Assembly (NCBI GenBank): GCA_021791515.1
Contig: JAJYWK010000022.1
Location: 1 to 33,658 of the forward strand
From: a bacterium
GTDB lineage: Bacteria > Patescibacteriota > Doudnabacteria > UBA920
DNA length: 33,658 bases
Direction of reading: 5' to 3'
Positions 206 to 15,996 of the stretch are shown here, in pieces; position 1 is the first letter of the stretch, and each line of letters opens with the position of its first letter. Made by a program: the position numbers and the translations under genes. The notes beneath the pieces were generated by a model, which was not told the origin of the DNA, made no database searches, and worked only from the letters and a program-made list of their open reading frames with translations.

Positions 206-2932
206 ATGACCAACTTGATTGGCTACAATCTATGGTTAGAAACAGTCAAAAAAATTCCTACTTGGGAATGGACGACTGGAATACTAACATTTTGTGGTGC
301 CATTTTTCTCTTTTCACTTTATCAACTCTTTTCTCTCTATCAACTCGATTTTTTTCACGCCTTTGAAAAGGTTAAAATTAAAAAGAAAGATTTAGACAGG
401 ACGTCGCGAGACGTCCTGTATTTTGAAATCACCATCCCAAAAGATTCTCAAACAACTGCGTTCCAAATCCAGCAAAAAATACTCAAAGCCTTCCATTCGG
501 TCTACGAAGATCCCATTGAAGGCCCTCACAAGTTTTCCCGGCACTTTTACTTTTTCCAAAAACTCTACCGCCACTGGAAAGTTGCCCGGGCAAGACAAAC
601 ATTTTTTACCATGCAGGTCTGGGCTCAATACCCATACATATCCTTTCGCCTCCAAATCCCAATAGCCTTTTTCCAACGCGTGGAAAAGGCTATTTTTAAT
701 GCTTACCCCAATGCGGAAATTACTATGTTAGATAAAGCAAAAGTTTTAGCAGAAGTGGCAAAGTCCCAAAAAAGCTATTTGAGTTATGGTCAAACTATTA
801 TTGAGGGAAAGTTTTACCATAGAGTTAAAACTTTTAAGGATGTTTCTAGTGACCCCGTGGATTCCATTATCTCTACAATGGAAGCACTTTCCAAAGGTCG
901 TTTTATGGCTTACAACATCTTAATTTCCCCCTCCTCTCATTACTTCAATCAAGTCATTCATTACTTGATTGAAGATCAGGAACGCCAGCAGGCGGTGGCT
1001 CAAATGGAAAAACGTACTCCTTCGCGCAATAAAGAAACTCCATCGGATTTAACCGGTTCGCTTAAAATAGCCATGGAAGAAAAAATGAAAGCATCTCTTT
1101 TCCAAACCATTATTTCCTATTGGGCGGTTTCCGATACTCCCGAAGACGCGGAAATCAAACTGGCCAACATCCAGTCCGTACTCACCGAAGTCAACCAAAA
1201 AAATATGAATATGCTTAAGCATAAAAAGCTATTCACAAAACAAGTTGAGGAACTGGAAAGCTCTGGGCAATTACAACAAATTATTGAAACTAGGCCGATT
1301 TTAAAAAGTAAGAAATTTTGGTTTTGGCCTTTTGGCGGCTACAAAAATTTTGGACAAGTTATTTCTGATATTGAGTTATTCTCCCTGTGGCATTTACCCG
1401 ATACCAACGACAAGACAGTTTCCTCGGTCAAAATAATTAAGTTCAAAAAGAAACCGGCAACACAGCAAATGCGCGAGTATGACGATAACTTTTATGTTGA
1501 ACTTGGCAAGTCTAATTTCCGAATGCAGGAAGATGCCATTATTGGCATTCCTACATGGGACGATATGAAAAAACATATTTACATTCTTGGCGGCACCGGT
1601 AGCGGAAAATCCGAAACCCTCAAAAGCATTTTAAATCATATCTTACAAAAAACAGGCAAGGAAAAAGCCGCCTGTTTAATTATTGATCCGAAAAATGATT
1701 TTGCCACGGACTTGCTTACTATGATCCCCGAGGATAGAAAAGAAGATGTTATTTATTTTAACCCCTCCAAACAAAAAGACAAGCCCTTAAGTTTTCCGTT
1801 TTTCTCGCAGTTTTCCGGTGAAAAGACGGCCGAGGAAAAAATTGGCTTTTTGATTTCTATAATGAAACGGTTTGTGCAAATTGACTCGGTTAGTTCCTGG
1901 GGTCCGGAATTGGAAAACATCCTCCGCCAACTATTTGCCACGGCTTACATATTACCTGCTCAATCTCTCTCGGGTTTAGATCAACTCTTACACGAACCTA
2001 ACCAGATAAAAAACATTTTAAAATATCTGCCTACGCGACTGCAAAGCTTTTGGACTGACTCCATATTAAAGCGAAGCAATAACGATTTGGCAAGATATTT
2101 GGCTACGACCAATAATAAAATCGGCAAATTTCTGGACTACCAGGAATTTATGAATATTGCAGATCGTTTGGAAACAAAGATTACTTTTGAAGACATGATA
2201 AAAGACGGTAAAATATTTATTGCCAACTTCGGATCTTCCAGTGAACAGCTTAAAAAATATTATTCGGTTTATCTCTCCGCCCATATTGCGGAAACTATCT
2301 TCGGACAGGCCAGACTTAACAGCGAAGACCGCAAGCCCACGGTTTTCGTAGTGGACGAATTCCAAAGAGTAGCTAGTGACATTTTTGAAACTCTATTTTC
2401 CGAAGTTAGGGCTTTTAACACCGCTCTTGTTATCTCAAACCAATTTATGGGGCAACTGGACGAGCGGATCCAAAAATCCATTGAGTCCAACATTGCTACC
2501 AAAATCTTTATGCGCACTCAGTCCGTTAATGACGCGGAAATTGCGGAAAAGATTTTAGGGGGCAAAATCACGGTAGAAGATATTATCAACCTCCCTACTG
2601 GAACGGCTTACATTAAAACTTTGGTGCAAGGTATACCACAGGACGCAATGTCAATTAATATTCAAAGAACTTCGCACCCTAAAGACATATCAAGAGACAC
2701 CGAGGATTATTTTATCAAGGACACAATGGAGCGGTACGGTACACCGTTAGAAGTTATAAAACAAAAACGGGATAACGCTAATAGTATTTATTACTCGTCT
2801 AAAAAAGAACAGATTTTTAAAGAACTTATGGGAAGGCATACCACATTTGAACCAAACAAGGTGGAACAGCCGGTCATTATAAATCTCGCTAAAGAAATAA
2901 TTGCCATAACAGAAACCAATCAATCCAAGTAA
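206..2932 (+). CDS. Type IV secretion coupling protein-like ATPase (VirD4/TraG/HerA-like DNA-pumping ATPase)
   Basis: Walker A GGTGSGKSETLKS, Walker B-like VFVVDEFQRVASD, N-terminal TM; first gene of T4SS operon. Confidence 0.85.
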   Translation: MTNLIGYNLWLETVKKIPTWEWTTGILTFCGAIFLFSLYQLFSLYQLDFFHAFEKVKIKKKDLDRTSRDVLYFEITIPKDSQTTAFQIQQKILKAFHSVYEDPIEGPHKFSRHFYFFQKLYRHWKVARARQTFFTMQVWAQYPYISFRLQIPIAFFQRVEKAIFNAYPNAEITMLDKAKVLAEVAKSQKSYLSYGQTIIEGKFYHRVKTFKDVSSDPVDSIISTMEALSKGRFMAYNILISPSSHYFNQVIHYLIEDQERQQAVAQMEKRTPSRNKETPSDLTGSLKIAMEEKMKASLFQTIISYWAVSDTPEDAEIKLANIQSVLTEVNQKNMNMLKHKKLFTKQVEELESSGQLQQIIETRPILKSKKFWFWPFGGYKNFGQVISDIELFSLWHLPDTNDKTVSSVKIIKFKKKPATQQMREYDDNFYVELGKSNFRMQEDAIIGIPTWDDMKKHIYILGGTGSGKSETLKSILNHILQKTGKEKAACLIIDPKNDFATDLLTMIPEDRKEDVIYFNPSKQKDKPLSFPFFSQFSGEKTAEEKIGFLISIMKRFVQIDSVSSWGPELENILRQLFATAYILPAQSLSGLDQLLHEPNQIKNILKYLPTRLQSFWTDSILKRSNNDLARYLATTNNKIGKFLDYQEFMNIADRLETKITFEDMIKDGKIFIANFGSSSEQLKKYYSVYLSAHIAETIFGQARLNSEDRKPTVFVVDEFQRVASDIFETLFSEVRAFNTALVISNQFMGQLDERIQKSIESNIATKIFMRTQSVNDAEIAEKILGGKITVEDIINLPTGTAYIKTLVQGIPQDAMSINIQRTSHPKDISRDTEDYFIKDTMERYGTPLEVIKQKRDNANSIYYSSKKEQIFKELMGRHTTFEPNKVEQPVIINLAKEIIAITETNQSK

Positions 2933-2934
2933 TT

Positions 2935-3822
2935 ATGTATCTCAATACCATCGACGTAAAATTAACTCCCAGAAAAGACATTGGCTCGTATAACGTAGAC
3001 CTCAATGAGTCCACGCTGGAAATTTTAATTTTGATTTTGGAATTTAAGCTGGCCTCCAGTTGCCATATTTCCAGGTTTGTGAGCCAAAAAGAGCGCGGCC
3101 GGTACATATACACTAAACTCCGCAGGATGTGGCAAGCCAAGCTACTGGAAAGCTTTAAAGTCTTTTCGGGCAGTAGTTTTACCCTGTTTTATATGCTTTC
3201 CAAAAAAAGTTTAAAAATATTGGCTGAGTCCGGCCAATGTGAACCATACCGCTTAAAAAATTACCCGACAGCTAAAACCTTGCTTTCTTGGGGACTGTTT
3301 AAGCATGAAGCGCAAATTGTTGAATTGGCTAGTTTAGAAAGCTTAAACAAATCTACCAATCTTAATATCAGCTTTAAAGGCGAAGACAATTCTCAATTAG
3401 AAGACTTTAGAGACGATAGACAAATTGAAGCCTTAACGCCGGATTACACCGTAACCTACAAAAATAATCAGTCGGAATATAAAGTTTACACTGAATTTGA
3501 ACGCACCCGAAAATCCAACGAATCCTTACTCAATAAAATCCAAAGATATTTAGATTTTTCCAACCCACAAGATTTTCAAAAACATACTTTGCGGTTAGTA
3601 TTTCAGACACTAAGTATGGAGCGTTCGCTTTGGCTAAACATTTTTCTAAACAGGCCTAGCTTATTAAAACTCAACATCTTAACAACTAATCTTGATTTTA
3701 TTTTCGGCGCTAAACAATTTATGGAGCCGATCTATGCTTCGGAAAGCACAGTTAAGCTAAATAAAGACGGACTGCTCAAAGCCGAAATATCACAGAGGAT
3801 TAAATTATTTAATTTCTTATAA
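2935..3822 (+). CDS. Replication-relaxation-like (MobC-like) conjugation accessory protein
   Basis: N-terminal wHTH-like region and C-terminal TPDYTV...YTEFERTRKS pattern resembling the replication-relaxation family; 2-nt gap to coupling protein. Confidence 0.5.
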   Translation: MYLNTIDVKLTPRKDIGSYNVDLNESTLEILILILEFKLASSCHISRFVSQKERGRYIYTKLRRMWQAKLLESFKVFSGSSFTLFYMLSKKSLKILAESGQCEPYRLKNYPTAKTLLSWGLFKHEAQIVELASLESLNKSTNLNISFKGEDNSQLEDFRDDRQIEALTPDYTVTYKNNQSEYKVYTEFERTRKSNESLLNKIQRYLDFSNPQDFQKHTLRLVFQTLSMERSLWLNIFLNRPSLLKLNILTTNLDFIFGAKQFMEPIYASESTVKLNKDGLLKAEISQRIKLFNFL

Positions 3823-3839
3823 TCTTAAAAACATATCCA

Positions 3840-3865
3840 AAAAGCCTAAAATCAAAAAGGCTTTT
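3840..3865. terminator. Hairpin AAAAGCCT-N10-AGGCTTTT between the replication-relaxation-like gene and the pilin-like gene; possible terminator/attenuator
   Basis: Perfect 8-bp inverted repeat ending in TTTT. Confidence 0.5.
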
Positions 3866-3918
3866 GGTCGATGGATGAAAACTTAAAAACTAAATTAATA
3901 AAAATTAACTCAACAAAT

Positions 3919-4287
3919 ATGAAAAAACTTTTAGCATCAATAGTAGCCAGTTTCTCAACTCTATTTTTTACAGCTTCAATCGCGTTAGCAGATGACCTGC
4001 CAAAACCCGATATGACAGTTTGGCAATCAGATAAAATGAAACCTGTTAGGGATTTTGCCAACATAGGCATTGGGGTCATATTTGGCATAGCAGTCGTCTA
4101 TGCGGTTATTATGGTGGCGTGGTATGGCGTTAAACTGCAGTCCTCGGGGTCGGACCCGATTAAATCCCAAGAAGCCAAGGCAGGGCTGAAATCCACTGTT
4201 GTGGGTGTGGGCATAACCTTTGCCGCTATCTTTATCATCGGGCTCATTCTCTATGTCTTAGGACTCGTTGGCATAAAATCAAACTAA
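3919..4287 (+). CDS. VirB2/TrbC-like conjugal pilin
   Basis: Signal peptide (MKKLLASIVASFSTLFFTASIALA) plus two TM helices, T4SS context; ORF track extends upstream to 3871 but ATG at 3919 gives a clean signal peptide. Confidence 0.65.
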   Translation: MKKLLASIVASFSTLFFTASIALADDLPKPDMTVWQSDKMKPVRDFANIGIGVIFGIAVVYAVIMVAWYGVKLQSSGSDPIKSQEAKAGLKSTVVGVGITFAAIFIIGLILYVLGLVGIKSN

Positions 4288-4303
4288 TTTTAGGATTAAA
4301 ATT

Positions 4304-5239
4304 ATGGACGAAAAACAAGATGACAAACAATCAAATAACAGGAATTGGTTTTTGAAGTTTGATAATTTCATAAAAACCTTCATTCCAAACTTCAACGCGC
4401 GGGCGATTTTGTATATCAGCTTGCTGTTTGCCGTGGTTATATATTTGCAAGTCTGGCGTATATCCGGTTCAAACCATACCAAACCCGTTGAGACAAAAAA
4501 AGAAACGGTTATTGCTGACGAAAGTTATTGGAAAAGCCAGGAGTATAAAGACAAAATAAAAAACCAGACTGCGCAGTCTTTTACTGACGAGCTACAAAGT
4601 TGGCTCGACGGCAAGAACCAGGAATTCGTCCGCAGAAAATTTGAAGATATTCTGTTCATAAATAATGGTCTTACACCTATGACCGGAGGTGATTTAATAA
4701 CGGTAGTACCGGAAAACTTTAACTACTTAGAAAATCACGCCCGGGGTCGGTATCAGTACGCCAAAGAAAAAGGTTTTTTAAGTGAAAGCCCTGTCTTGGT
4801 AAAACTTGGCAATGCTGTTTGTGATTTAAACGATAAAACCGAAAAAGCCACTGGCATTGAACTGTACGATTGGCGTTATGCATCCATGCCCAAGCTTGCC
4901 CAATTCCTGAAAACCAGTCCCGACTGGAAAATGCAAATCGGAAATGAAATTTTAGATGTCAGCGACCCACGGATTGAAGACAAAGACGTATTGCGGTTAG
5001 AAAACTCCCAAACCCAGCCTGTTGGTTTATTGTCATTTCTAATATTCCGAGACACTCAGACTAACCACATATATTTAGCTGACACAGAAATACTTGAGAA
5101 CAATGGCATTGATGCGAAATTAAGTCTAAGCCGCATTGGCTCGATAGATAAACAGCCAAAACTTTATTTTAAGTACGGCTACGAGGGTTGCAAGCAAATT
5201 AATAGTGCTACCCAAATAAATTATGGACAACCTGATTAA
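4304..5239 (+). CDS. Single-TM T4SS-associated protein of unknown family (VirB8-like position)
   Basis: N-terminal TM (ARAILYISLLFAVVIYLQVW) then ~250 aa soluble domain; overlaps next gene by 17 nt. Confidence 0.7.
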   Translation: MDEKQDDKQSNNRNWFLKFDNFIKTFIPNFNARAILYISLLFAVVIYLQVWRISGSNHTKPVETKKETVIADESYWKSQEYKDKIKNQTAQSFTDELQSWLDGKNQEFVRRKFEDILFINNGLTPMTGGDLITVVPENFNYLENHARGRYQYAKEKGFLSESPVLVKLGNAVCDLNDKTEKATGIELYDWRYASMPKLAQFLKTSPDWKMQIGNEILDVSDPRIEDKDVLRLENSQTQPVGLLSFLIFRDTQTNHIYLADTEILENNGIDAKLSLSRIGSIDKQPKLYFKYGYEGCKQINSATQINYGQPD

Positions 5240-6530
5240 AGCGGTTTTATCCAATTACATACCCACCCTTATTGTTGTTAGCATAATCGTTGGTATTTTT
5301 GCGGTGGCTATTGCCGGGATTATTAGAAACTCCGGCAAACACGATGATGTAGCCCGCTCTAACTTAATTATCCAGACGGTTATTGTTGGCATGGTTATGC
5401 TGTTTGTGACAGGGGCTTTTGTGTTTGCATTTCACGAAGCGTATGTTAGTCATTTTTATGGCGGGATTCAGCAAAGTATTACGGATAAACTGCCCAAAGA
5501 TGGCGATGTGAATAATACCGATCTTTTCAAAGGCGATGTTGTTAGCGCATCCAATACATCTGAAGCCAAATGTATTTTAATTGTGGTTGATACCATAGAC
5601 TGCATAAAGAAAACCATAAACGATATTATTGGCTCCATTATTTCAAAACTCGTCAGAGGTATAGGCGAAGCTATAAGCAAGGTGGTAGAAAAATTTAATT
5701 TTAATTTCCTTTTTAACCTGCCGGCAGAATTGTTCGACAACAACCCCAATTTACCGGCAGACAAGCTGGCACGAATAGCAAGTTTTGACAGCCTTATTAA
5801 ACTTAGTGAAATTATTGGTTTAGCTTGGGTCTATTTATTAATAGTAACTCATTATTTTAAATCCATAATTTTTTCCTTGGAAAAAGACTTTTCCAATGAC
5901 TTTATTGGAGATATAGGCAAAATGTTGTTGGGATTCGGCGGGGTGTTTTTAGCCAGGTATGTAGCCGAAGCCGTAATATTAACCGCCCAAGCCTTTGCCG
6001 GATTTCTTTTTAATAGCCAATTAACCAGTGGTTTAACCGTTGCTCTTAAAGCGTTGATTACCGACGGGTTATGGAGTTCCTTTTCCAGCTTTGGCTTGTC
6101 GTTAGTTGGCCTGGCCGTGTTCGTTTTGGTCTATATTATTCTGTTTGGTTTTATTGTCTTCCGAAACGCTAAACGTTATTTTCTCCTGCTCATTATGATT
6201 TTGCTTGCCCCAATATTTACGCCAATGCTGTTTTTCGAGGAAACGAAAAATATGGGTATGATTTTTTGGAATAAATTCTTTGTTACCAGCTTTGGGCTAA
6301 TATTTGATTTGCTGATCCTCCTCATAGTTTTTGTGTTTTTAAGTTCCGGCGGTATTTCTTTGGGTAACTTAATTTTAATGCTGGTCGGCATGGCCATAGT
6401 AGCCGATAGCAACAATCTTATTCAGCAAGTCGCCAATGCTTCCGAAGTAGCTGGATTTAAATCCGTAATTAGAAAAGGTGTCCAATCAGGAGCCGGATTA
6501 TATTATAGGTTGCGCAGACTAAAAGGCTAA
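5223..6530 (+). CDS. Polytopic membrane protein, VirB6/TrbL-like
   Basis: Multiple TM segments, conserved position in T4SS operon. Confidence 0.65.
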   Translation: MDNLIKAVLSNYIPTLIVVSIIVGIFAVAIAGIIRNSGKHDDVARSNLIIQTVIVGMVMLFVTGAFVFAFHEAYVSHFYGGIQQSITDKLPKDGDVNNTDLFKGDVVSASNTSEAKCILIVVDTIDCIKKTINDIIGSIISKLVRGIGEAISKVVEKFNFNFLFNLPAELFDNNPNLPADKLARIASFDSLIKLSEIIGLAWVYLLIVTHYFKSIIFSLEKDFSNDFIGDIGKMLLGFGGVFLARYVAEAVILTAQAFAGFLFNSQLTSGLTVALKALITDGLWSSFSSFGLSLVGLAVFVLVYIILFGFIVFRNAKRYFLLLIMILLAPIFTPMLFFEETKNMGMIFWNKFFVTSFGLIFDLLILLIVFVFLSSGGISLGNLILMLVGMAIVADSNNLIQQVANASEVAGFKSVIRKGVQSGAGLYYRLRRLKG

Positions 6531-6541
6531 CATCTTAAATT

Positions 6542-7000
6542 ATGTCAGAAGACAAACAATTCAAAATAGATATTCCGGATTCCATAGAAGCCTACAAAGT
6601 TACTTTGTTTTGGGGTCTTGGCCTTAAGCAAATAATTTTGGTGTTTGGAGCTACTTTGTTTTTGGGTTTTGGAATTTTTAATTTAACGACCCGTCATTTC
6701 GTAACCATGGTGATTATGTTTATTATGACTGTGTTAATGCTTCTTGGTATAACTGAAATTCGGGGAAGAAATTTTTACCGGCATTGTTCATTCATTTTTT
6801 CTTATTACAAAAACAAGCCAAGAGTTCTTGTCTACAATCATTATTCTTCCAGCGGTTCGGCGGCAACACACGAAAAACAATTGGTCTTCCAAAAAGACAA
6901 CAATACCAAAATTTTTATTTTAATTTTTATTGGTTTAGTGTTAGGTCTCTTACTATTAATTTTAGTCGGAGTTCATATATACCATGTCATTCATCAATAA
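6542..7000 (+). CDS. PrgI-like/VirB3-like small membrane protein
   Basis: N-terminal FKIDIPDSIEAYKVTLFWGLGLKQ with paired TM, immediately upstream of and overlapping VirB4. Confidence 0.65.
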   Translation: MSEDKQFKIDIPDSIEAYKVTLFWGLGLKQIILVFGATLFLGFGIFNLTTRHFVTMVIMFIMTVLMLLGITEIRGRNFYRHCSFIFSYYKNKPRVLVYNHYSSSGSAATHEKQLVFQKDNNTKIFILIFIGLVLGLLLLILVGVHIYHVIHQ

Positions 7001-9383
7001 TATTTTTTTCAAAACCAAACCAAAATTTCAAACCCTGTCCAATTTTTGGCAGTTTAAAGATGTTAAGGACGGATGTCTGATTATGAAAAATGGCTCATAC
7101 CGAATGTGTCTGGAAGTATTTCCGGCCAACTTTGGTCTTATGGACGAAGAGGAAAAGAAACGGGCAGTCACGGGCTTTGAGCAGGTCTTAAGGGAAATAG
7201 ACATCAAGTACCCTTTGCGAGTATTGGTGCAAACCCGCAAAACCAATGCCGACGACTACATTGACCAGCTGGAACACACTTACAGCATCCGCGGTCTTGG
7301 TACTTATGACTTGTTTGAAAAATATGCTGATTTTATTAAGGACGTTAGCAAGGACTATGAAATTATCACCAAAAGATTCTATCTAATTTTAGAATTTAGC
7401 GAACTTAAATATACGCTGTCCAAAGATATTATTAGTCGGGAAGAAAAAGAAACGAAAAAAAGGCGGCAGATTACCGAGCAGGAAATTTTCCAAGAGGCAA
7501 GGCAAAGCATGATCTCTATCCTCACAACTTTCAAATCCCAGCTCCAAGCTATAAATTTAAAAACTAAAATTTTGGAAACAGAGGACATTGTCCGAGTAAT
7601 GATGGATTATTTAGACGAAGAAAAATTCCTAAATAACCGGCAATTTTACGAACACATTGAGGACTTTCGCAAAAAGGCTGCGGAGCAGTCCTTGCCATTT
7701 TCAGTAATTAACAAAATTAGCCCTGACTTCATTGAAGAAGAAAATATTGACCTGTTAAGCATTAATGGCAAAAACTTTCTGCGCTCAGAGTTCATTAGTG
7801 AGCTAGGCTCCTACGCATATATAGATTGGTTTAAGGAAATTATTATGTTTCCGTACGCAAGTGATTTAATGTTTACCTTTACCAGCAAAGACCCAAAGGC
7901 CACAGTAATGAAAATTACGGAAAAACGCCACCGCATAGAGTCCAAAATATTTGACGAAACCCAAGCCCACAAGCCTAAAAATATTGCCGACAACTTAGTA
8001 CTTGAAAGCACGGAACGAATTGAAAAGCAGTATTTAAAATCGGAAATCAAACCCATTGATTTAAAAATAGAAGTTACATTCCGCTCGGACACTTTGCAGG
8101 CCTTAAATATGGTGCATATGAATATGGAGCGCGTCTTAAGCCGCAAAATGATGCAGTCGCGAATATACCACTATGAACAGTTAGAAGGCCTCAAGGGCAC
8201 GTTTATTGCAGGCCACAACGATACCGATACCAGAAACCATAGGGACATAAACACGGGTGTAGCCTCGTTTACCTTTCCATTCATTACCCCGCAAATTTCT
8301 TCCAACACCGGCATACTCTACGGCGTGGACGAAATTAACCGCTCGCTTGTAACCATAGATATTAAAGAACTGGAAAGTTATAACCGTTCCATTATTGCTT
8401 CAACCGGTGCCGGAAAATCTTATTTTATTAAACTTGACCTGATACGTAGCAGGATGATCGGCTACCAATCATTTGTTTTAGATGTGGAAAACGAATTTGA
8501 AATGATTACCAGTTACTTAAAAGGAAAGTACATAGAACTTTCCGAACGCTCTATTTATTACATTAATCCTTTTCACATTCCGGGGCCGGAGTACAAAGCG
8601 CAAAAAATTGAATTTGTTAGGCAACTTTTCCAGAGCCTCTATCAAAACGAGAAGATTAACGTGACTGATATTACACAGCTGGAAAAAGCCATTGGCCAAG
8701 TGTATGAAAGAAGTTTACAAGATAACACCCAGCCAGTCCTTATAGATTTTATAAAAGAGATAGACCTACTAACAAAAAATAGGACAATCGAAAGTTTGCT
8801 TACAGTTTTAAGGTCGTATACCGAACCTCGGCATCCGCAGTATTACCTTTTTAACAAACAACAAAATATTGATTTTGCCAGCGACAACCTAGTTGTCTTT
8901 GCTTTGAAGTATGTAGACAAAAGAGACTTTGTAGTGGCTGTGATTTTAGAAAGCTATTGGAGTTACATTAACCATCCCAAAAATAAAGGAAGATTTAAAA
9001 ATTTAATCGTAGACGAGGCCAGCCAATTATTTCAATCCAGCCTCATTGTAGAAAAACTTGCTTCACTTGCTCTGCGGGGCAGAAAATATAACTCGGGCGT
9101 AACAACCATAGTCCAGTCAATAAACCATTATTACAATAGCGGCTTTGCCCGAACCAGTGATTTATTTGACCAGTCGTCGCTGACATTAATTATGAAACAT
9201 AAAGTCAGCGACTCATTCGACAAGCTCAACGAAAAAGTCCACATTAACAAACCCGAACGCGCCTACTTGGAACGGCTGGAAATTGGAAAAGGACTACTTA
9301 TAATAAATGATTCAAAAATTCCTCTTTCCATAAAAAGTAGCGAAGAGGAAGACAGAGTTTGCACCACCAAACCGCCGCGCTAA
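6984..9383 (+). CDS. virB4: VirB4-family T4SS ATPase
   Basis: Walker A ASTGAGKSYFIKLDLIRSRM, SFVLDVENEFEMI, Walker B NLIVDEASQLFQ. Confidence 0.9.
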   Translation: MSFINNIFFKTKPKFQTLSNFWQFKDVKDGCLIMKNGSYRMCLEVFPANFGLMDEEEKKRAVTGFEQVLREIDIKYPLRVLVQTRKTNADDYIDQLEHTYSIRGLGTYDLFEKYADFIKDVSKDYEIITKRFYLILEFSELKYTLSKDIISREEKETKKRRQITEQEIFQEARQSMISILTTFKSQLQAINLKTKILETEDIVRVMMDYLDEEKFLNNRQFYEHIEDFRKKAAEQSLPFSVINKISPDFIEEENIDLLSINGKNFLRSEFISELGSYAYIDWFKEIIMFPYASDLMFTFTSKDPKATVMKITEKRHRIESKIFDETQAHKPKNIADNLVLESTERIEKQYLKSEIKPIDLKIEVTFRSDTLQALNMVHMNMERVLSRKMMQSRIYHYEQLEGLKGTFIAGHNDTDTRNHRDINTGVASFTFPFITPQISSNTGILYGVDEINRSLVTIDIKELESYNRSIIASTGAGKSYFIKLDLIRSRMIGYQSFVLDVENEFEMITSYLKGKYIELSERSIYYINPFHIPGPEYKAQKIEFVRQLFQSLYQNEKINVTDITQLEKAIGQVYERSLQDNTQPVLIDFIKEIDLLTKNRTIESLLTVLRSYTEPRHPQYYLFNKQQNIDFASDNLVVFALKYVDKRDFVVAVILESYWSYINHPKNKGRFKNLIVDEASQLFQSSLIVEKLASLALRGRKYNSGVTTIVQSINHYYNSGFARTSDLFDQSSLTLIMKHKVSDSFDKLNEKVHINKPERAYLERLEIGKGLLIINDSKIPLSIKSSEEEDRVCTTKPPR

Positions 9384-9394
9384 TTATTTTTTTT

Positions 9395-10156
9395 ATGAAC
9401 CTTGCACAAGTAGCATATGCCGCTTATGAAAATAGGGACAAAATTAAAAGGTTTTTAAAGTGGCTGGCAATTCTTGTTTTGAGCGGCGCATTTATTCTTT
9501 ATTTAATTTTTGCAACTATTATTGCAGTGTTGCAGGGCAACGGTAAAGTAGCCGACAGTAGTATTAATCCGAATTTAGCTCAGTTTGTCGAATTCCAAAG
9601 TTTTAGTTACAGAACTATTTACGGCGAAACTTGGTATGACTTTAAACACCCATATTTTTTCCCGACCTTAGGAGCTTTAACCCAAGGGGTTATTCTGGAT
9701 TCCTCGGCAAAAGTCGGACGGTTGCATATTGCCTGGGACATTGCAGACCACCAGCCCAGGCAAACCGAAGTAAGGGCTTTTGCCGATGGAGTTGTAGAAG
9801 CGGTTAACAATAATATGCTAATAAAGACCACAAGGCGCTGGAAATTTTGTGATGATAATGATTATGGTATTTGTTGGTATGCGGTAAAAGAAACTACCGA
9901 TGTGCAATATGCTTGCGGATACGAAGTTATTATTGCTCATACAGATTCCTTAAAGAGCCAGTATTGCCACTTAGCGTCCGAACCGCCACTAAAAGTAGGA
10001 CAAAAAGTTGATGCCGGACAAATTATTGGTATTCAAGGTAGTACCGGCTGGGCAACAGGCAAGCACTTGCACTTTGCACTATGGCGGGACAACCAGCCAA
10101 TAGATCCTTCTTATGCTTTTTTACAAACTAGTTTAAGTGATTGGGAAGATAAATAA
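9395..10156 (+). CDS. Membrane-anchored M23 peptidase (peptidoglycan hydrolase of the T4SS)
   Basis: HIAWD ... HTDSLKSQYCHLA ... GKHLHFAL motifs of M23; N-terminal TM; longer ORF start at 9359 overlaps VirB4. Confidence 0.8.
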   Translation: MNLAQVAYAAYENRDKIKRFLKWLAILVLSGAFILYLIFATIIAVLQGNGKVADSSINPNLAQFVEFQSFSYRTIYGETWYDFKHPYFFPTLGALTQGVILDSSAKVGRLHIAWDIADHQPRQTEVRAFADGVVEAVNNNMLIKTTRRWKFCDDNDYGICWYAVKETTDVQYACGYEVIIAHTDSLKSQYCHLASEPPLKVGQKVDAGQIIGIQGSTGWATGKHLHFALWRDNQPIDPSYAFLQTSLSDWEDK

Positions 10157-10167
10157 TTTGTAAAATT

Positions 10168-10707
10168 ATGACAAAAAATACCAAGGCGATAATATGGGCG
10201 AGTGTAGCTGTAATGGCTCTTATTATTGGTGGAGTAACTTATGAAAAACAAAGGCCAAAGAAACCGGTTGTTCATAAAGACCCAATAATAAAAACTGCAG
10301 CGCAACCCGCCGAGCAATCGCCAACAACCACACCTATCGAAACAGCAACATCAAGTCCAATTGTAGTTGCTACTTCAACACCTATTACTAAAATCATTTC
10401 GCGCAAACCAAAATCTGCAACTATTAGTTATGGCGACGCTGTCGTTAAGTACGGATTCAACCGTATACAGTTTGCCCCAGGTTGTTTGCAGGCCGTTCCC
10501 AACCAAATAGCCACGGCCAACCCTGTAACACTCATGCTGGATAACCGTTCAGATGCCTGGCAGGCCATTACCATTGGTAGCCACCTTTATAATATTGCTC
10601 CTTACAACTATGTTATAGCAACTATTAACGAAACAGCATTGCCCATAAATTTATATATTTCCTGTAACCAACAGAAAAATGTGGGGCAAATAATTTTACA
10701 GAAATGA
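10168..10707 (+). CDS. Membrane-anchored protein with a cupredoxin-like C-terminal domain, ligands mostly absent
   Basis: N-terminal TM, Thr/Pro-rich linker, C-terminal beta pattern ANPVTLMLDNRSDAWQAITI...LPINLYISCNQQKNVGQIILQ. Confidence 0.5.
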   Translation: MTKNTKAIIWASVAVMALIIGGVTYEKQRPKKPVVHKDPIIKTAAQPAEQSPTTTPIETATSSPIVVATSTPITKIISRKPKSATISYGDAVVKYGFNRIQFAPGCLQAVPNQIATANPVTLMLDNRSDAWQAITIGSHLYNIAPYNYVIATINETALPINLYISCNQQKNVGQIILQK

Positions 10708-10736: not shown

Positions 10737-10771
10737 AATGCGCGCGCAAGGGCGGGCGGGGCAAGCGCATT
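10737..10771. repeat. Inverted repeat AATGCGC/GCGCATT enclosing G-rich GGGCGGGCGGGG
   Basis: Read directly; at the junction of convergent gene blocks. Confidence 0.6.
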
Positions 10772-10792: not shown

Positions 10793-11275
10793 TTAAAAGA
10801 GGTGGCGTTCCTTAAAACTTGTATAAGAGTCAGTGGTTACAATGACATGGTCAAGCACATGGATGCCAAGAAGTTTTCCTGCATCTACCAATCGCTTGGT
10901 AACAGTAAGGTCTTCGGCAGAGGGTTCAAGACCTCCGCTTGGGTGGTTGTGGACGAATATTACAGAAGCGGAATTTTTTAATATGGCTGTCCTAAAGCAC
11001 TCCCTTGGGTGAATCAGGCTGGTGTTTAATGTGCCAATGCTGACTGTTTCCTTGCCGAGAATTCTGTTTTGGGTATCCAGGAAAAAGACGTAGAAATGTT
11101 CTTTTTTAGCTTTTCTGAAGTTCTTACACTTTGAGGCTATTTCCAAAGGGCTGTAAACGCCGTCCTTCATAGCCTTAACTTCCAAATTATTGCCTACATA
11201 ATTCTTGGCTTTATCTTTCGCCTCAGTTTCACTTTCTGCTGTGAACTGATAGTTGATGTTGATTTGGTATTCCAT
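10793..11275 (-). CDS. RadC-like JAB domain protein
   Basis: VHNHPSGGLEPSAEDLTVTKRLVDAGKLLGIHVLDHVIV JAMM motif; GGAG RBS upstream. Confidence 0.85.
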   Translation of the reverse strand: MEYQININYQFTAESETEAKDKAKNYVGNNLEVKAMKDGVYSPLEIASKCKNFRKAKKEHFYVFFLDTQNRILGKETVSIGTLNTSLIHPRECFRTAILKNSASVIFVHNHPSGGLEPSAEDLTVTKRLVDAGKLLGIHVLDHVIVTTDSYTSFKERHLF

Positions 11276-11277
11276 AA

Positions 11278-11440
11278 AACTCCTTTTTGCTTACTTATTA
11301 TGGCAAGCAAAAAACTCTGGAATGTTTTGGCAGTCAACGGGAGTAAAAACGATTTATGGCTTACGGCAGATAAAGAGGTTTTACCCTTGACCGGCCAAAA
11401 ACCCAGAGTTACAATGGAAATCCCTAAGGAAGCAAAAAGT
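11278..11440 (-). repeat. Leader copy 1 upstream of RadC-like gene; core 11328-11402
   Basis: 75-bp core matches 11994-12068 with 3 mismatches, weaker similarity on both flanks. Confidence 0.85.
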
Positions 11441-11517
11441 TTTTTGTATTTCAAAATTGTTTTTTATGAACATAGAAAAAGCCACCTTGTGAAGGATGGC
11501 TTAATTTTGTTTTGGGT

Positions 11518-11679
11518 TTAGACTTCAAAGTATTTTTTGATGTTTAAGTTGTAGGAGCCGCAACCCGGACAAGTTACTGTGTCCAGGTCTATAATTTCCT
11601 GCCTGCTGGCGCTCCAGCAATTTTGGCATTTTGGGCAGGTTATTAAGTATTGAAAGTAAGCTGTGAGTGTTTTTAGCAT
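11518..11679 (-). CDS. Small zinc-ribbon protein, 53 aa (not in ORF track)
   Basis: Translated by hand: MLKTLTAYFQYLITCPKCQNCWSASRQEIIDLDTVTCPGCGSYNLNIKKYFEV*; CPKC...CPGCG. Confidence 0.65.
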   Translation of the reverse strand: MLKTLTAYFQYLITCPKCQNCWSASRQEIIDLDTVTCPGCGSYNLNIKKYFEV

Positions 11680-11740
11680 TGGTGTTATGTTAGTTGTTTA
11701 AAGAAAGTATTTTTGTTTTTGTTTGTATTTTTGCGTTTGT

Positions 11741-11938
11741 TTAGAGCTGTTGTTTAACAGCGATGTACGCCGAGACTTTTTTCCCGAAATCGTGATAGTC
11801 GCTGGAAGCCGGGTCTACAGAATTTCTCAACTCTAAAAAGTAGTTGATACTTCTCTGCAAGGACGCTTTGATGATATTTGACTTCATCTCGGTCGTTAGT
11901 TCCTGCTTGTTAACTGGCTTGTAATTTTTGTTAGCCAT
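11741..11938 (-). CDS. Small hypothetical protein (65 aa)
   Basis: ORF with GGAG RBS; preceded by leader copy 2. Confidence 0.55.
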   Translation of the reverse strand: MANKNYKPVNKQELTTEMKSNIIKASLQRSINYFLELRNSVDPASSDYHDFGKKVSAYIAVKQQL

Positions 11939-11941
11939 ATT

Positions 11942-12100
11942 AACTCCTTTCTTTGCTTAATTATTATGGCGAAATAACACTGGCCGCAGGTTATGGCAGT
12001 CAACGGGATTAAAACCGATTTATGGCTCACGGCAGATAAAGAGGTTTTACCCTTGACCGGCCAAAAACGGCCAGTAAGATGAGAAACCATAAGAAAGCAA
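11942..12100 (-). repeat. Leader copy 2 upstream of the 65-aa gene; core 11994-12068
   Basis: Same repeat as 11278-11440. Confidence 0.85.
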
Positions 12101-12131
12101 GACAAGTATTAAAAGCCGAAGGCAACATAAA

Positions 12132-12216: not shown

Positions 12217-14085
12217 CTACCTTACTGAAAATAGCTTAAGGCTGTTTAATATTACCAGTATTGCCATAATGGAGTCTGCCCCAATAGCCCATTGCAAATC
12301 CGCATGGCCGAGCAAGGCTAAAATCATAAACAAAGCTTTAATGCCGAGCGATACCCCAATGTTCTGCTTCATGGTCACAATAGCTTTTTTACCCAGCCTA
12401 ATAGCATACGGGATGTTTAAAAGATTATTATTCATGAGAGCGACATCGGCAGTTTCAATTGCCACGTCGCTGCCGCCAGCCCCCATGGCAATACCTACAG
12501 TGGCTGTTGCTAAAGAGGGAGCGTCATTTACTCCATCGCCAACCATGGCCACGTGTTGGTAATGCTGTTTTAATTGTTCTACCTGCTTGACCTTTTCGTC
12601 AGGAAGCAGCGACGCGTGCACTTCTTCTATGCCTAGTTGCCTTGCCACATACCCGGCGGTATGTTCGTTGTCTCCGGTAACAATTACGGATTTGATTTTG
12701 TTCTTTTTAAGCTGTGAGATAGTATCTTCGGACTCGGGACGAATTTCATCGGCAATTGCCAAAGCTCCCATGACGTTTTTGCCCTCGCTTACTAGCACTG
12801 CCGTTTTGCCCTGTCTTTCCAAATGTTCTGTTTTTTCCAAAACTTCTTTTGTCGCATGACTTTCAGCTCCAATGAACTTTAAATTGCCGATGCAGTGGTC
12901 TTTGTCTTCGCAAACCAGGCAGTTTGCTTTGCCGCCTTTGCCGGCAAAATTTTGGTATGAGCGCATATCGTGTGCTGCAATACCTTTGCTTTCCGCAAAA
13001 TCCATAATGCTCTTTGAGAGAGGGTGGGAAGAAAACTTCTCAATCCCCGCGGCGTCGGCAATCACCATCTCCTCGGCAAAGCCGTTAAAGGTGATAACCT
13101 CGGAAACGACCGGCTCGCCCAGAGTCAGTGTGCGGGTCTTGTCAAAAGCCACGGCCTTGATCTTGCTCAAAGCTTCCAAATACTTGCCGCCCTTAATGAG
13201 TATGCCCCGTTTGGAGGCGCCGCCAATTGCCGAGGCAATGGCAACTGGGGTCGAAATTACGAGAGAGCAAGGGCAGGCAATCACCAGCAGTACAAGCGCG
13301 CGATACAGCCAGTCCATAAATACCCCACCAAAGAACAACGGCGGAATAGTGGCCATTAGAAATGCAAGACCAACTACTGTCGGCGTATAGTATTTGGCAA
13401 ACACGTCGATAAATTCCTGCGCCGGAGCCTTGGAACGCTGGGCTTTTTCCACCAGGCTGACTATTTTGGCGAAGGTGGAATCCTTGCTTTCTTTAATAGT
13501 GATTACTTCCAGGTAGCCGTTTTGGTTTAAAGTTCCAGCAAAGACCTCGTCCCCTGAATGTTTTTCCTTGGGCACCGGTTCTCCGGTAATAGTTGCTTCA
13601 TCAACGGACGAGTTGCCGGTTGAGACCTTGCCGTCTAGCGGAACAAGGTCGCCTGGGCGGACTATGAATAAGTCATTAATTTTAACCTGCTCGATTGGCA
13701 CGGTTTCCCCGTTTTTCAGGGTCGCAGTTCGGGGAGATTTTTTGATTAAGGCTTCCACGGCCCTGCGGGAGCGCTCTATACCAAACTCTTCAAAGAACTC
13801 AGCCAGAGAAAAGAAAAAGATGACCGCTGCAGCCTCTGAGAGCTGATTTATGTAAAGCGCACCAATGGCAGCGATGGTTACAAGAAAATCTATGTTTAAA
13901 AATCTTTGTTTAACCAAACCACGAACTGCCCCTAAGACTACAAAGTAGCCGCCGGCTATCATGGAAAGGATGTATAAAAAGTCTACTGCTTGTTTTGGAG
14001 TGTTAAGCCAATTTAACAGAAAGGCCAGCAGGAATAATCCCCCGGATATGTAAGTCAATAATTTTTTTGCTAATTTTTTGTTCAT
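12217..14085 (-). CDS. P1B-type heavy-metal translocating ATPase (ZntA/CadA-like) with atypical DKTR phosphorylation motif
   Basis: CPCSLVISTP, TGEPVPKE, SSHPLS, MVGDGVNDAPSLATATVGIAMG; phosphorylation site reads FDKTRTLT. Confidence 0.9.
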   Translation of the reverse strand: MNKKLAKKLLTYISGGLFLLAFLLNWLNTPKQAVDFLYILSMIAGGYFVVLGAVRGLVKQRFLNIDFLVTIAAIGALYINQLSEAAAVIFFFSLAEFFEEFGIERSRRAVEALIKKSPRTATLKNGETVPIEQVKINDLFIVRPGDLVPLDGKVSTGNSSVDEATITGEPVPKEKHSGDEVFAGTLNQNGYLEVITIKESKDSTFAKIVSLVEKAQRSKAPAQEFIDVFAKYYTPTVVGLAFLMATIPPLFFGGVFMDWLYRALVLLVIACPCSLVISTPVAIASAIGGASKRGILIKGGKYLEALSKIKAVAFDKTRTLTLGEPVVSEVITFNGFAEEMVIADAAGIEKFSSHPLSKSIMDFAESKGIAAHDMRSYQNFAGKGGKANCLVCEDKDHCIGNLKFIGAESHATKEVLEKTEHLERQGKTAVLVSEGKNVMGALAIADEIRPESEDTISQLKKNKIKSVIVTGDNEHTAGYVARQLGIEEVHASLLPDEKVKQVEQLKQHYQHVAMVGDGVNDAPSLATATVGIAMGAGGSDVAIETADVALMNNNLLNIPYAIRLGKKAIVTMKQNIGVSLGIKALFMILALLGHADLQWAIGADSIMAILVILNSLKLFSVR

Positions 14086-15009: not shown

Positions 15010-15996
15010 CTAATTAATTTTTAAATTTAAAATTTTATTCTCATTAGGATTAGTATATTCGTAGCAGCCGTCGGTTGTTTTTTTGATTGGCTTAGCCGTA
15101 TAGGACAGCTCTGTTTCATTAGGGTTCAAACTAACTACTGAATAATCTATGCCTTCTTGGTTTAATAATTTTTCACTTTTGCCGCTTTCTATTTCTTTTA
15201 AAATAATATATCTTCCTACGTTTGCTCCCATTGAACCACAGACGTAACTATTAAGGTCGTAGTCAGTGTAAATAACTTTGCTATAGGAGTCTGCAAATAC
15301 GGCCCCATCGTACGCAAGATCCTCTAACGCTCCGCCTGTGGGGTTTATTGTATGGAAAGAATATTGGGTATATCCTCCGGAACCGCAGCTTGTGGGGTTG
15401 CCCAGTTTCGTGATAATTTTTTTATCATTTTTTGACCAAGCTAAGGGGAAATCAATCAACGTACAGCCTCCGGCTAAAGCTCTGTTTACCAGTAGCCTTT
15501 GATACCAGGAGCTTTGTTTGGGGTAAGAATATATTTTATTCGCATCTCCGGTTTTTAAATTTTTCACAACTATATTATATTTCCAATTTTGACATTGGCC
15601 ATTGTCGGAGGCATTGTAACTATTAAGAGCCTTAATGCAATCGCTAATCTCAGCGTATACGGCACGGGTTTTGTCATGCGACAGAATCAGTGAAGTAACA
15701 ATAAATCCGGAGGAGGGCGTAATATTAATGCCCTGGTCTTTGCGCTGGAGCTCCGGATCAAGATTAACAAAAGCAGCTTCAGCAGTTTGTTTCGTGCTTA
15801 GTTGAGATTGAGCGGCAGGACGCGGCTCGTCAGCAGTTTGTTTCGTGCTTAGTTGAGATTGAGCGGCAGGACGCGGCTCCTCTTTGCGAGAATTTTTATC
15901 TTTAAATATGTAAAAAGCAGCGATGAGGAATAAAGCAAATAAAACTGTTACAATGATTGCTTTTTTAGGTTCAAATTTTCCTGAGTGATTATGCAT
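15010..15996 (-). CDS. Membrane-anchored hypothetical protein with tandem 17-aa repeat in the linker
   Basis: N-terminal TM, EPRPAAQSQLSTKQTAD x2, ~240 aa exported domain. Confidence 0.7.
   Translation of the reverse strand: MHNHSGKFEPKKAIIVTVLFALFLIAAFYIFKDKNSRKEEPRPAAQSQLSTKQTADEPRPAAQSQLSTKQTAEAAFVNLDPELQRKDQGINITPSSGFIVTSLILSHDKTRAVYAEISDCIKALNSYNASDNGQCQNWKYNIVVKNLKTGDANKIYSYPKQSSWYQRLLVNRALAGGCTLIDFPLAWSKNDKKIITKLGNPTSCGSGGYTQYSFHTINPTGGALEDLAYDGAVFADSYSKVIYTDYDLNSYVCGSMGANVGRYIILKEIESGKSEKLLNQEGIDYSVVSLNPNETELSYTAKPIKKTTDGCYEYTNPNENKILNLKIN
15779..15880. repeat. 51-bp tandem duplication (50/51 identical) inside the 328-aa ORF
   Basis: Direct comparison of 15779-15829 and 15830-15880. 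Confidence 0.9.

Follow-up and report, generated by a model that had tools for sequence, protein, structure and literature searches.

The type IV secretion operon and its neighbouring leaders

We have analysed a stretch of 33.7 kb (hereafter the window), which is one contig of a genome of 1.17 Mb; the named relatives that share its radC gene are Candidatus Doudnabacteria. Its + strand carries a type IV secretion system (T4SS) operon (206..10707), which holds a coupling-protein-like ATPase (206-2932), a Replic_Relax gene (2935-3822), a VirB4/TraG ATPase (6984-9383) and an M23 peptidase (9359-10156), together with pilin-like and membrane genes. Beyond the operon, on the - strand, there are a radC-family gene encoding a RadC-like JAB domain protein of 160 aa (10793..11275; PF04002, 9.5e-43), and a 65-aa gene (11741..11938), which seems to form an operon, likewise conserved in relatives, with the 53-aa zinc-ribbon-like gene that comes after it (11518..11679; weak Pfam hits). 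The 65-aa product is predicted to be a two-helix hairpin (pLDDT 89), and aligns as one family with the small helical 58-aa protein of the HUH-Rep elements described below.

Between the T4SS operon and radC, an inverted repeat, ATGCGC...GCGCAT, encloses a G-rich loop (10738..10771) and is conserved in three elements. The same ATGCGC-(G-rich)-GCGCAT repeat is also observed at 6727 of locus L122, and at 10068 and 437 of L126, the second L126 copy being inverted. It is a candidate for either an oriT or a bidirectional terminator.

Upstream of both radC and the 65-aa gene lies a direct repeat (11324-11402 and 11990-12068), in which 75 of 79 nt are identical (95%). The original prediction had reported a 75-bp core with three mismatches and weaker similarity reaching the start codons. 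Indeed, the core differs at exactly three positions (11343, 11349 and 11362), and the similarity does extend to the ribosome-binding site (RBS) and start codon of each gene. The full leaders, as delimited by a covariance model (CM), form the same imperfect hairpin at 11279..11439 (copy 1, upstream of radC) and 11945..12104 (copy 2, upstream of the 65-aa gene), both annotated on the - strand, and stop 2-4 nt ahead of the predicted start codons. We propose that copy 1 acts as a single-stranded DNA (ssDNA) promoter once the + (template) strand has folded.

By BLAST and then a CM search, with a model built from 14 copies, the leader of ~160 nt has been found in at least 19 copies in 7 of the 49 genomes of the order, all Ca. 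Doudnabacteria. This recovery rules out a chance local duplication. Several copies are paired or in triplets on one element, and the pairwise identity is 60-96% (median 69%). Wherever the gene has been identified, a copy lies 2-24 nt upstream of the start codon of radC or of a member of the 65/58-aa family, with one exception: a copy in L122 precedes a 53-aa zinc-ribbon-like gene, and no intact 65-aa gene was found there. The copies are confined to the order in our searches, since neither BLAST nor the CM detected any in the other Patescibacteria sampled, and none was found in the viral, plasmid and phage collections (72,556 plasmids; 50,697 phages).

A covarying hairpin with a probable promoter on the template strand

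The entire leader folds as one long imperfect hairpin with compensatory changes. The outer stem differs by class while the two arms covary: the radC class has AACTCTGG/CCAGAGTT, the 65-aa class ACTGGCCG/CGGCCAGT and the 58-aa class AATTTTCG/CGAAAATT. That is, what had been described as a 24-nt variable block is really this outer stem, which changes together with its partner arm. In the model alignment of 19 unaltered copies, double-sided changes occur at 24 pairs, and the covariation score is 0.219, compared with 0.098 +/- 0.009 for shuffled alignments and at most 0.058 when the partners are slid; as the structure was derived from the same sequences, the slid control flatters it. The shuffle control on double changes is fairer, and gives 34 cells compared with 90 in the real alignment. 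The changes track base pairs, not codons.

On the template strand (the + strand of the window), the 3' arm of the hairpin reads, from loop to base, TTGAC, 16-18 nt, and a hexamer resembling TA(T/C/A)AAT. In copy 1, the -35 TTGACC (11387..11392, +) is base-paired, and the -10 TACAAT (11410..11415, +) follows at 17 nt, with -12 paired and the positions from -11 onwards unpaired. In copy 2, the -35 is again TTGACC (12053..12058, +), and the -10 TAAGAT (12075..12080, +), at 16 nt, matches at 4/6 positions, one of the two weakest among the 19. Overall, 17 of the 19 copies carry, 16-18 nt from the -35, a -10 that scores 5/6 or better and includes the A at -11 and the T at -7, where 0.29 would be expected from dinucleotide shuffles and the corresponding coding-strand arm shows it in 0/19; since the copies are related (pairwise identity 60-96%), these are not independent trials, but the three divergent classes agree.

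In addition, the mean -10 match is 5.26/6 (9.8 bits), while the facing arm is unconserved, with 2.74/6 (5.2 bits). The mean pairing probability is ~0.8-0.99 along most of the -35 and the spacer, apart from a drop at weak pairs midway, and then changes abruptly: from 0.90 at -12 it falls to 0.15 at -11, remains low until about -2, and recovers to 0.88 at +2. This unpaired stretch, from -11 until pairing resumes near +2, equals the bubble of a sigma70 open complex. Even the one copy that has lost the hairpin apex (L127:11386) keeps the -35, spacer, -10, bubble and outer stem.

The geometry of the folded + strand is such that a polymerase leaving at the hairpin base is led into the RBS and the gene. 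As for promoters of the Frpo/ssi type, a stem-loop reconstitutes the -35 and -10 at the right spacing, and the strand that folds is the template of the downstream gene, the promoter being on the + strand only and the genes on the - strand. From the hairpin register, the transcript is predicted to start within CCATAAT (11297..11303, -), position 11301 (A) being +1 on the assumption of bubble arms of equal length, and is followed by the RBS AAGGAG.

Taken alone, the architecture score is not unique across 1.34 Mb, and its best five hits are all leader copies. As a control, the F plasmid was analysed, and its template-strand hairpin, duplication and orientation were all reproduced; in the -35/-10 scan of F, however, the known Frpo promoter did not stand out, which indicates that the scan is tuned to near-consensus promoters. 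No analogous hairpin promoter above the opposite-strand control was found before ~75 other RadC genes (Dehalococcoidia, Anaerococcus and other Patescibacteria). A double-stranded promoter on the coding strand, at the conserved CATAAT near the hairpin base, was considered separately and rejected, as -35 matches at 15-19 nt from it are below random (2.6 vs 3.0).

These data bear on the question of whether the leader works as RNA, i.e., as a riboswitch-like or protein-binding 5' UTR transcribed from a promoter further upstream. The covarying hairpin ends at the RBS, and the RNA folds well (z of -4.2 and -5.5), as such a reading expects. However, it leaves the sigma70 spacing of the -10 and -35 on the antisense arm and the bubble from -11 to -1 unexplained. 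Furthermore, coding-strand mismatches outside the uncertain 53/147 pair comprise 13 A.C and 8 G.U, so that A.C is at least as common as G.U, unlike in RNA helices; a test of RNA versus DNA wobble pairs showed no clear strand preference, and only the RNA-like excess of G.U is missing. The sequence upstream of the hairpin is unconserved, and thus no common upstream promoter is seen. Rfam gave no match at the gathering score either, and at E<=10 returned only TLS-PK6 and Lnt below threshold. A structured RNA leader is quite unlikely on this balance.

The original prediction had left a choice between a shared cis-regulatory leader serving several genes and a leader peptide that couples translation. 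The first is strongly supported, since the 19 copies covary and always precede genes of the same families; the second is not supported, as set out below. The mechanism that we favour is narrower than this proposal: most likely it is the template DNA, and not the RNA, that functions.

Two kinds of elements that carry the leader

In all five loci that hold both on the fetched stretch, the leader genes are convergent with the T4SS operon. Should the template strand be the one transferred, transcription would run towards the 5' end of the T-strand, by analogy with the F leading region. Among 22 genomes of the family, the leader is present in 5/6 genomes with Replic_Relax and in 1/16 without it (p=0.0013). 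The window-type T4SS operon itself is patchy (5/22 family genomes), and is distinct from the T4SS of most complete family genomes (~27% VirB4 identity). On the other hand, its VirB4 is 81-95% identical across families, and still 81% identical in two other Patescibacteria families. A T4SS that is patchy yet this similar in other families indicates horizontal transfer. No canonical relaxase was recognised in the element, only Replic_Relax, and no ssb gene was seen adjoining the leaders.

Loci with this T4SS are 206-10707 of the window, L134, L135, L166 and L167-L168. No leader was detected with the same T4SS in genomes G012, G181 and G314 on the contigs seen, nor beside it in the two other families on the contigs examined. 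In G314, which belongs to another family, a metal P-type ATPase by the T4SS (L167, 115-1776) is 70% identical to that of the window (12217-14085), and further metal-resistance-like genes are located in the same neighbourhood. By sequence comparison, the metal P-type ATPase region is a putative common cargo of the element.

The leader is also used by a second kind of element. G009, the genome with the leader and without Replic_Relax, has small elements that combine a serine recombinase with an HUH Rep from the ORF2/G2P family, as do loci L123 and L124; this Rep assignment was tested for L124 and L128 (PF23343), and was made by position for L123. The elements span L123 6877-10648, L124 8397-11574 and L128 9204-12578, each with the serine recombinase, the leader with its 58-aa gene, and the HUH Rep, and those in L123 and L128 additionally carry a gene of ~70 aa. 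Such elements of Doudnabacteria are apparently integrative and possibly mobilizable. As HUH-Rep elements likewise pass through single-stranded DNA, the same hairpin is observed in two unlike elements that generate ssDNA, which supports a function on ssDNA. Reverse transcriptase genes (RVT_1) are also present within a few kb of some leaders (L132 9498-10505, where the gene sits between the leader genes and the T4SS, and L125 3316-4317), and could be retron- or DGR-like.

The occurrence in these elements also raises the question of whether the leader is a single-strand origin (sso), i.e., a site where RNA polymerase makes the primer for second-strand synthesis and not an mRNA. The corresponding elements of rolling-circle (RCR) plasmids and F are indeed folded ssDNA promoters for priming (PMC4595007). 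Some leader copies are located in HUH-Rep elements, as this reading would have it, and both roles may coexist. But up to three copies are found per element, nearly all directly before an RBS and gene, while one sso suffices; each copy being coupled to a gene argues for mRNA synthesis. The CS-6 loop motif of ssoA, TAGCG(A/T), is also absent. We therefore regard a priming role in place of mRNA synthesis as very unlikely.

It may also be asked whether the + strand simply has an ordinary double-stranded promoter for a divergent gene or an antisense RNA, the region being palindromic for other reasons. In the 58-aa class, a serine recombinase does start ~60 bp upstream in the opposite direction (L124 and L128), and at this distance a double-stranded promoter could serve it. 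The window and most copies of the radC and 65-aa classes have no closely divergent gene ahead, however, and a covarying hairpin of ~150 nt, a mismatched bubble and a fixed position relative to the RBS of another gene would all be left unexplained, so that we consider this highly improbable as the sole account. As an extra function, above all in the 58-aa class, the same -35 and -10 could, in double-stranded DNA, give rise to antisense transcripts leading away from the gene. The double-stranded form may point the other way, e.g., to the recombinase, which would make the leader a strand-state switch.

Hardly credible, finally, is a duplicated leader peptide whose translation would run past the start codon of the gene that follows: both window copies do have an uninterrupted minus-strand frame, as had been noted, but it is not the preserved frame that was claimed, since stops or frameshifts break it in at least 5 of the 19 copies (L131:11719, L124, L125, L128 and L127:11386), there is no conserved start, the frame relative to the gene varies, and the substitutions follow pairing.

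Proposed transcription from incoming single strands and its relation to known systems

Based on the above analyses, the leaders are probably ssDNA promoters for zygotic expression in the conjugative and mobilizable elements of Patescibacteria. The + strand of the window, i.e., the template of radC and of the 65-aa gene, would be single-stranded during transfer and would fold into the hairpin of ~150 nt. One arm would then act as the non-template strand of a sigma70-type promoter, with an apex that is AT-rich and UP-like, then the -35 TTGAC and a spacer of 16-18 nt, both paired, and last a TATAAT-like -10 that would already be melted for want of pairing with the facing arm. The RNA polymerase of the host may bind there, initiate near the conserved CCATAAT, leave via the hairpin base, and read the still single-stranded gene into an mRNA with a short 5' UTR (~26-29 nt) and a good RBS. 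In this way the recipient would make RadC and the small proteins early, until second-strand synthesis removes the hairpin and expression ends. We infer the ssDNA transcription, the identity of the transferred strand, and the role of the products in establishment or anti-defence.

The closest parallel is the ssDNA promoter Frpo/ssi, known from F and ColIb-P9 (Masai & Arai 1997; PMC9849209; PMC11541004). Frpo is a T-strand stem-loop that recreates the -35 and -10 (PMC9849209, PMC11541004), and in vitro it has both an mRNA promoter and a primer role. The leader shares with it a template-strand hairpin, with the -35/-10 in the stem and an AT-rich UP-like part. In F, the hairpin stands upstream of leading-region genes; the leader adjoins radC and the T4SS operon, in a possible leading region. 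Both occur in more than one near-identical copy per element (Frpo1 and Frpo2 of F are 89% identical over 559 bp), and the genes of F are transcribed towards oriT. The leader differs in being about half as long, in belonging to another phylum, and in having an openly mismatched -10 region; it serves radC and small helical proteins, whereas Frpo serves ssb/psiB. No significant similarity was found between the leader and the F leading region (best E 0.10, alignments of at most 29 nt).

Among the single-strand origins, ssoA/ssoU and the pBAA1-type sso1 of ICEBs1 (PMC4595007) are folded ssDNA as well, and are recognised by RNA polymerase; they belong to rolling-circle or conjugative elements. The leader, a single long hairpin without CS-6, differs from them in being gene-coupled and multi-copy. 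EGeRS1 of pLS20 (PMC8708921) resembles it in that repeated inverted-repeat leaders precede establishment genes of a conjugative element; according to its authors, the fold contains no promoter, and lies on the wrong strand for ssDNA transcription (PMC8708921). The Doudnabacteria leader, in contrast, has a promoter in the right register. DNA hairpin promoters are also used by the virion RNA polymerase of phage N4, but these are short, are recognised by a phage-specific polymerase and have no sigma70 -35/-10, while the leader is longer and has both. No report of ssDNA promoters in Patescibacteria was found in the open-access literature searched.

We consider it probable, though less firmly than the promoter function itself, that the leader represents a new family of ssDNA promoters, unrelated in sequence to Frpo/ssi and sso and used by T4SS integrative as well as HUH-Rep/serine-recombinase elements, which would imply that a Patescibacterial T4SS conjugates, with establishment genes expressed from the incoming single strands. 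A survey of 2025 made the case that Patescibacterial T4SSs are mostly without relaxases and have probably been repurposed away from conjugation (PMC12102498). A mobile T4SS lineage such as the present one would be missed by a relaxase-based survey. A promoter anatomy that is sensible only on transferred ssDNA would, if true, be independent evidence that at least one Patescibacterial T4SS lineage conjugates. RadC, the 65/58-aa proteins and the 53-aa protein would then be the first candidates for establishment or anti-defence factors in this lineage.

The leader further suggests more than one origin for ssDNA promoters. Since BLAST-based searches for Frpo cannot find this family, others may lie concealed ahead of early genes in many elements. 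A bubble-in-hairpin rule, i.e., a paired -35 and spacer, mismatched positions from -11 to -1, and a paired downstream part, offers a sequence-independent criterion for such searches.

Elsewhere in the window, we have observed a 51-bp tandem duplication (15779-15880) inside the minus-strand gene 15010-15996, which encodes the in-frame repeat EPRPAAQSQLSTKQTAD.
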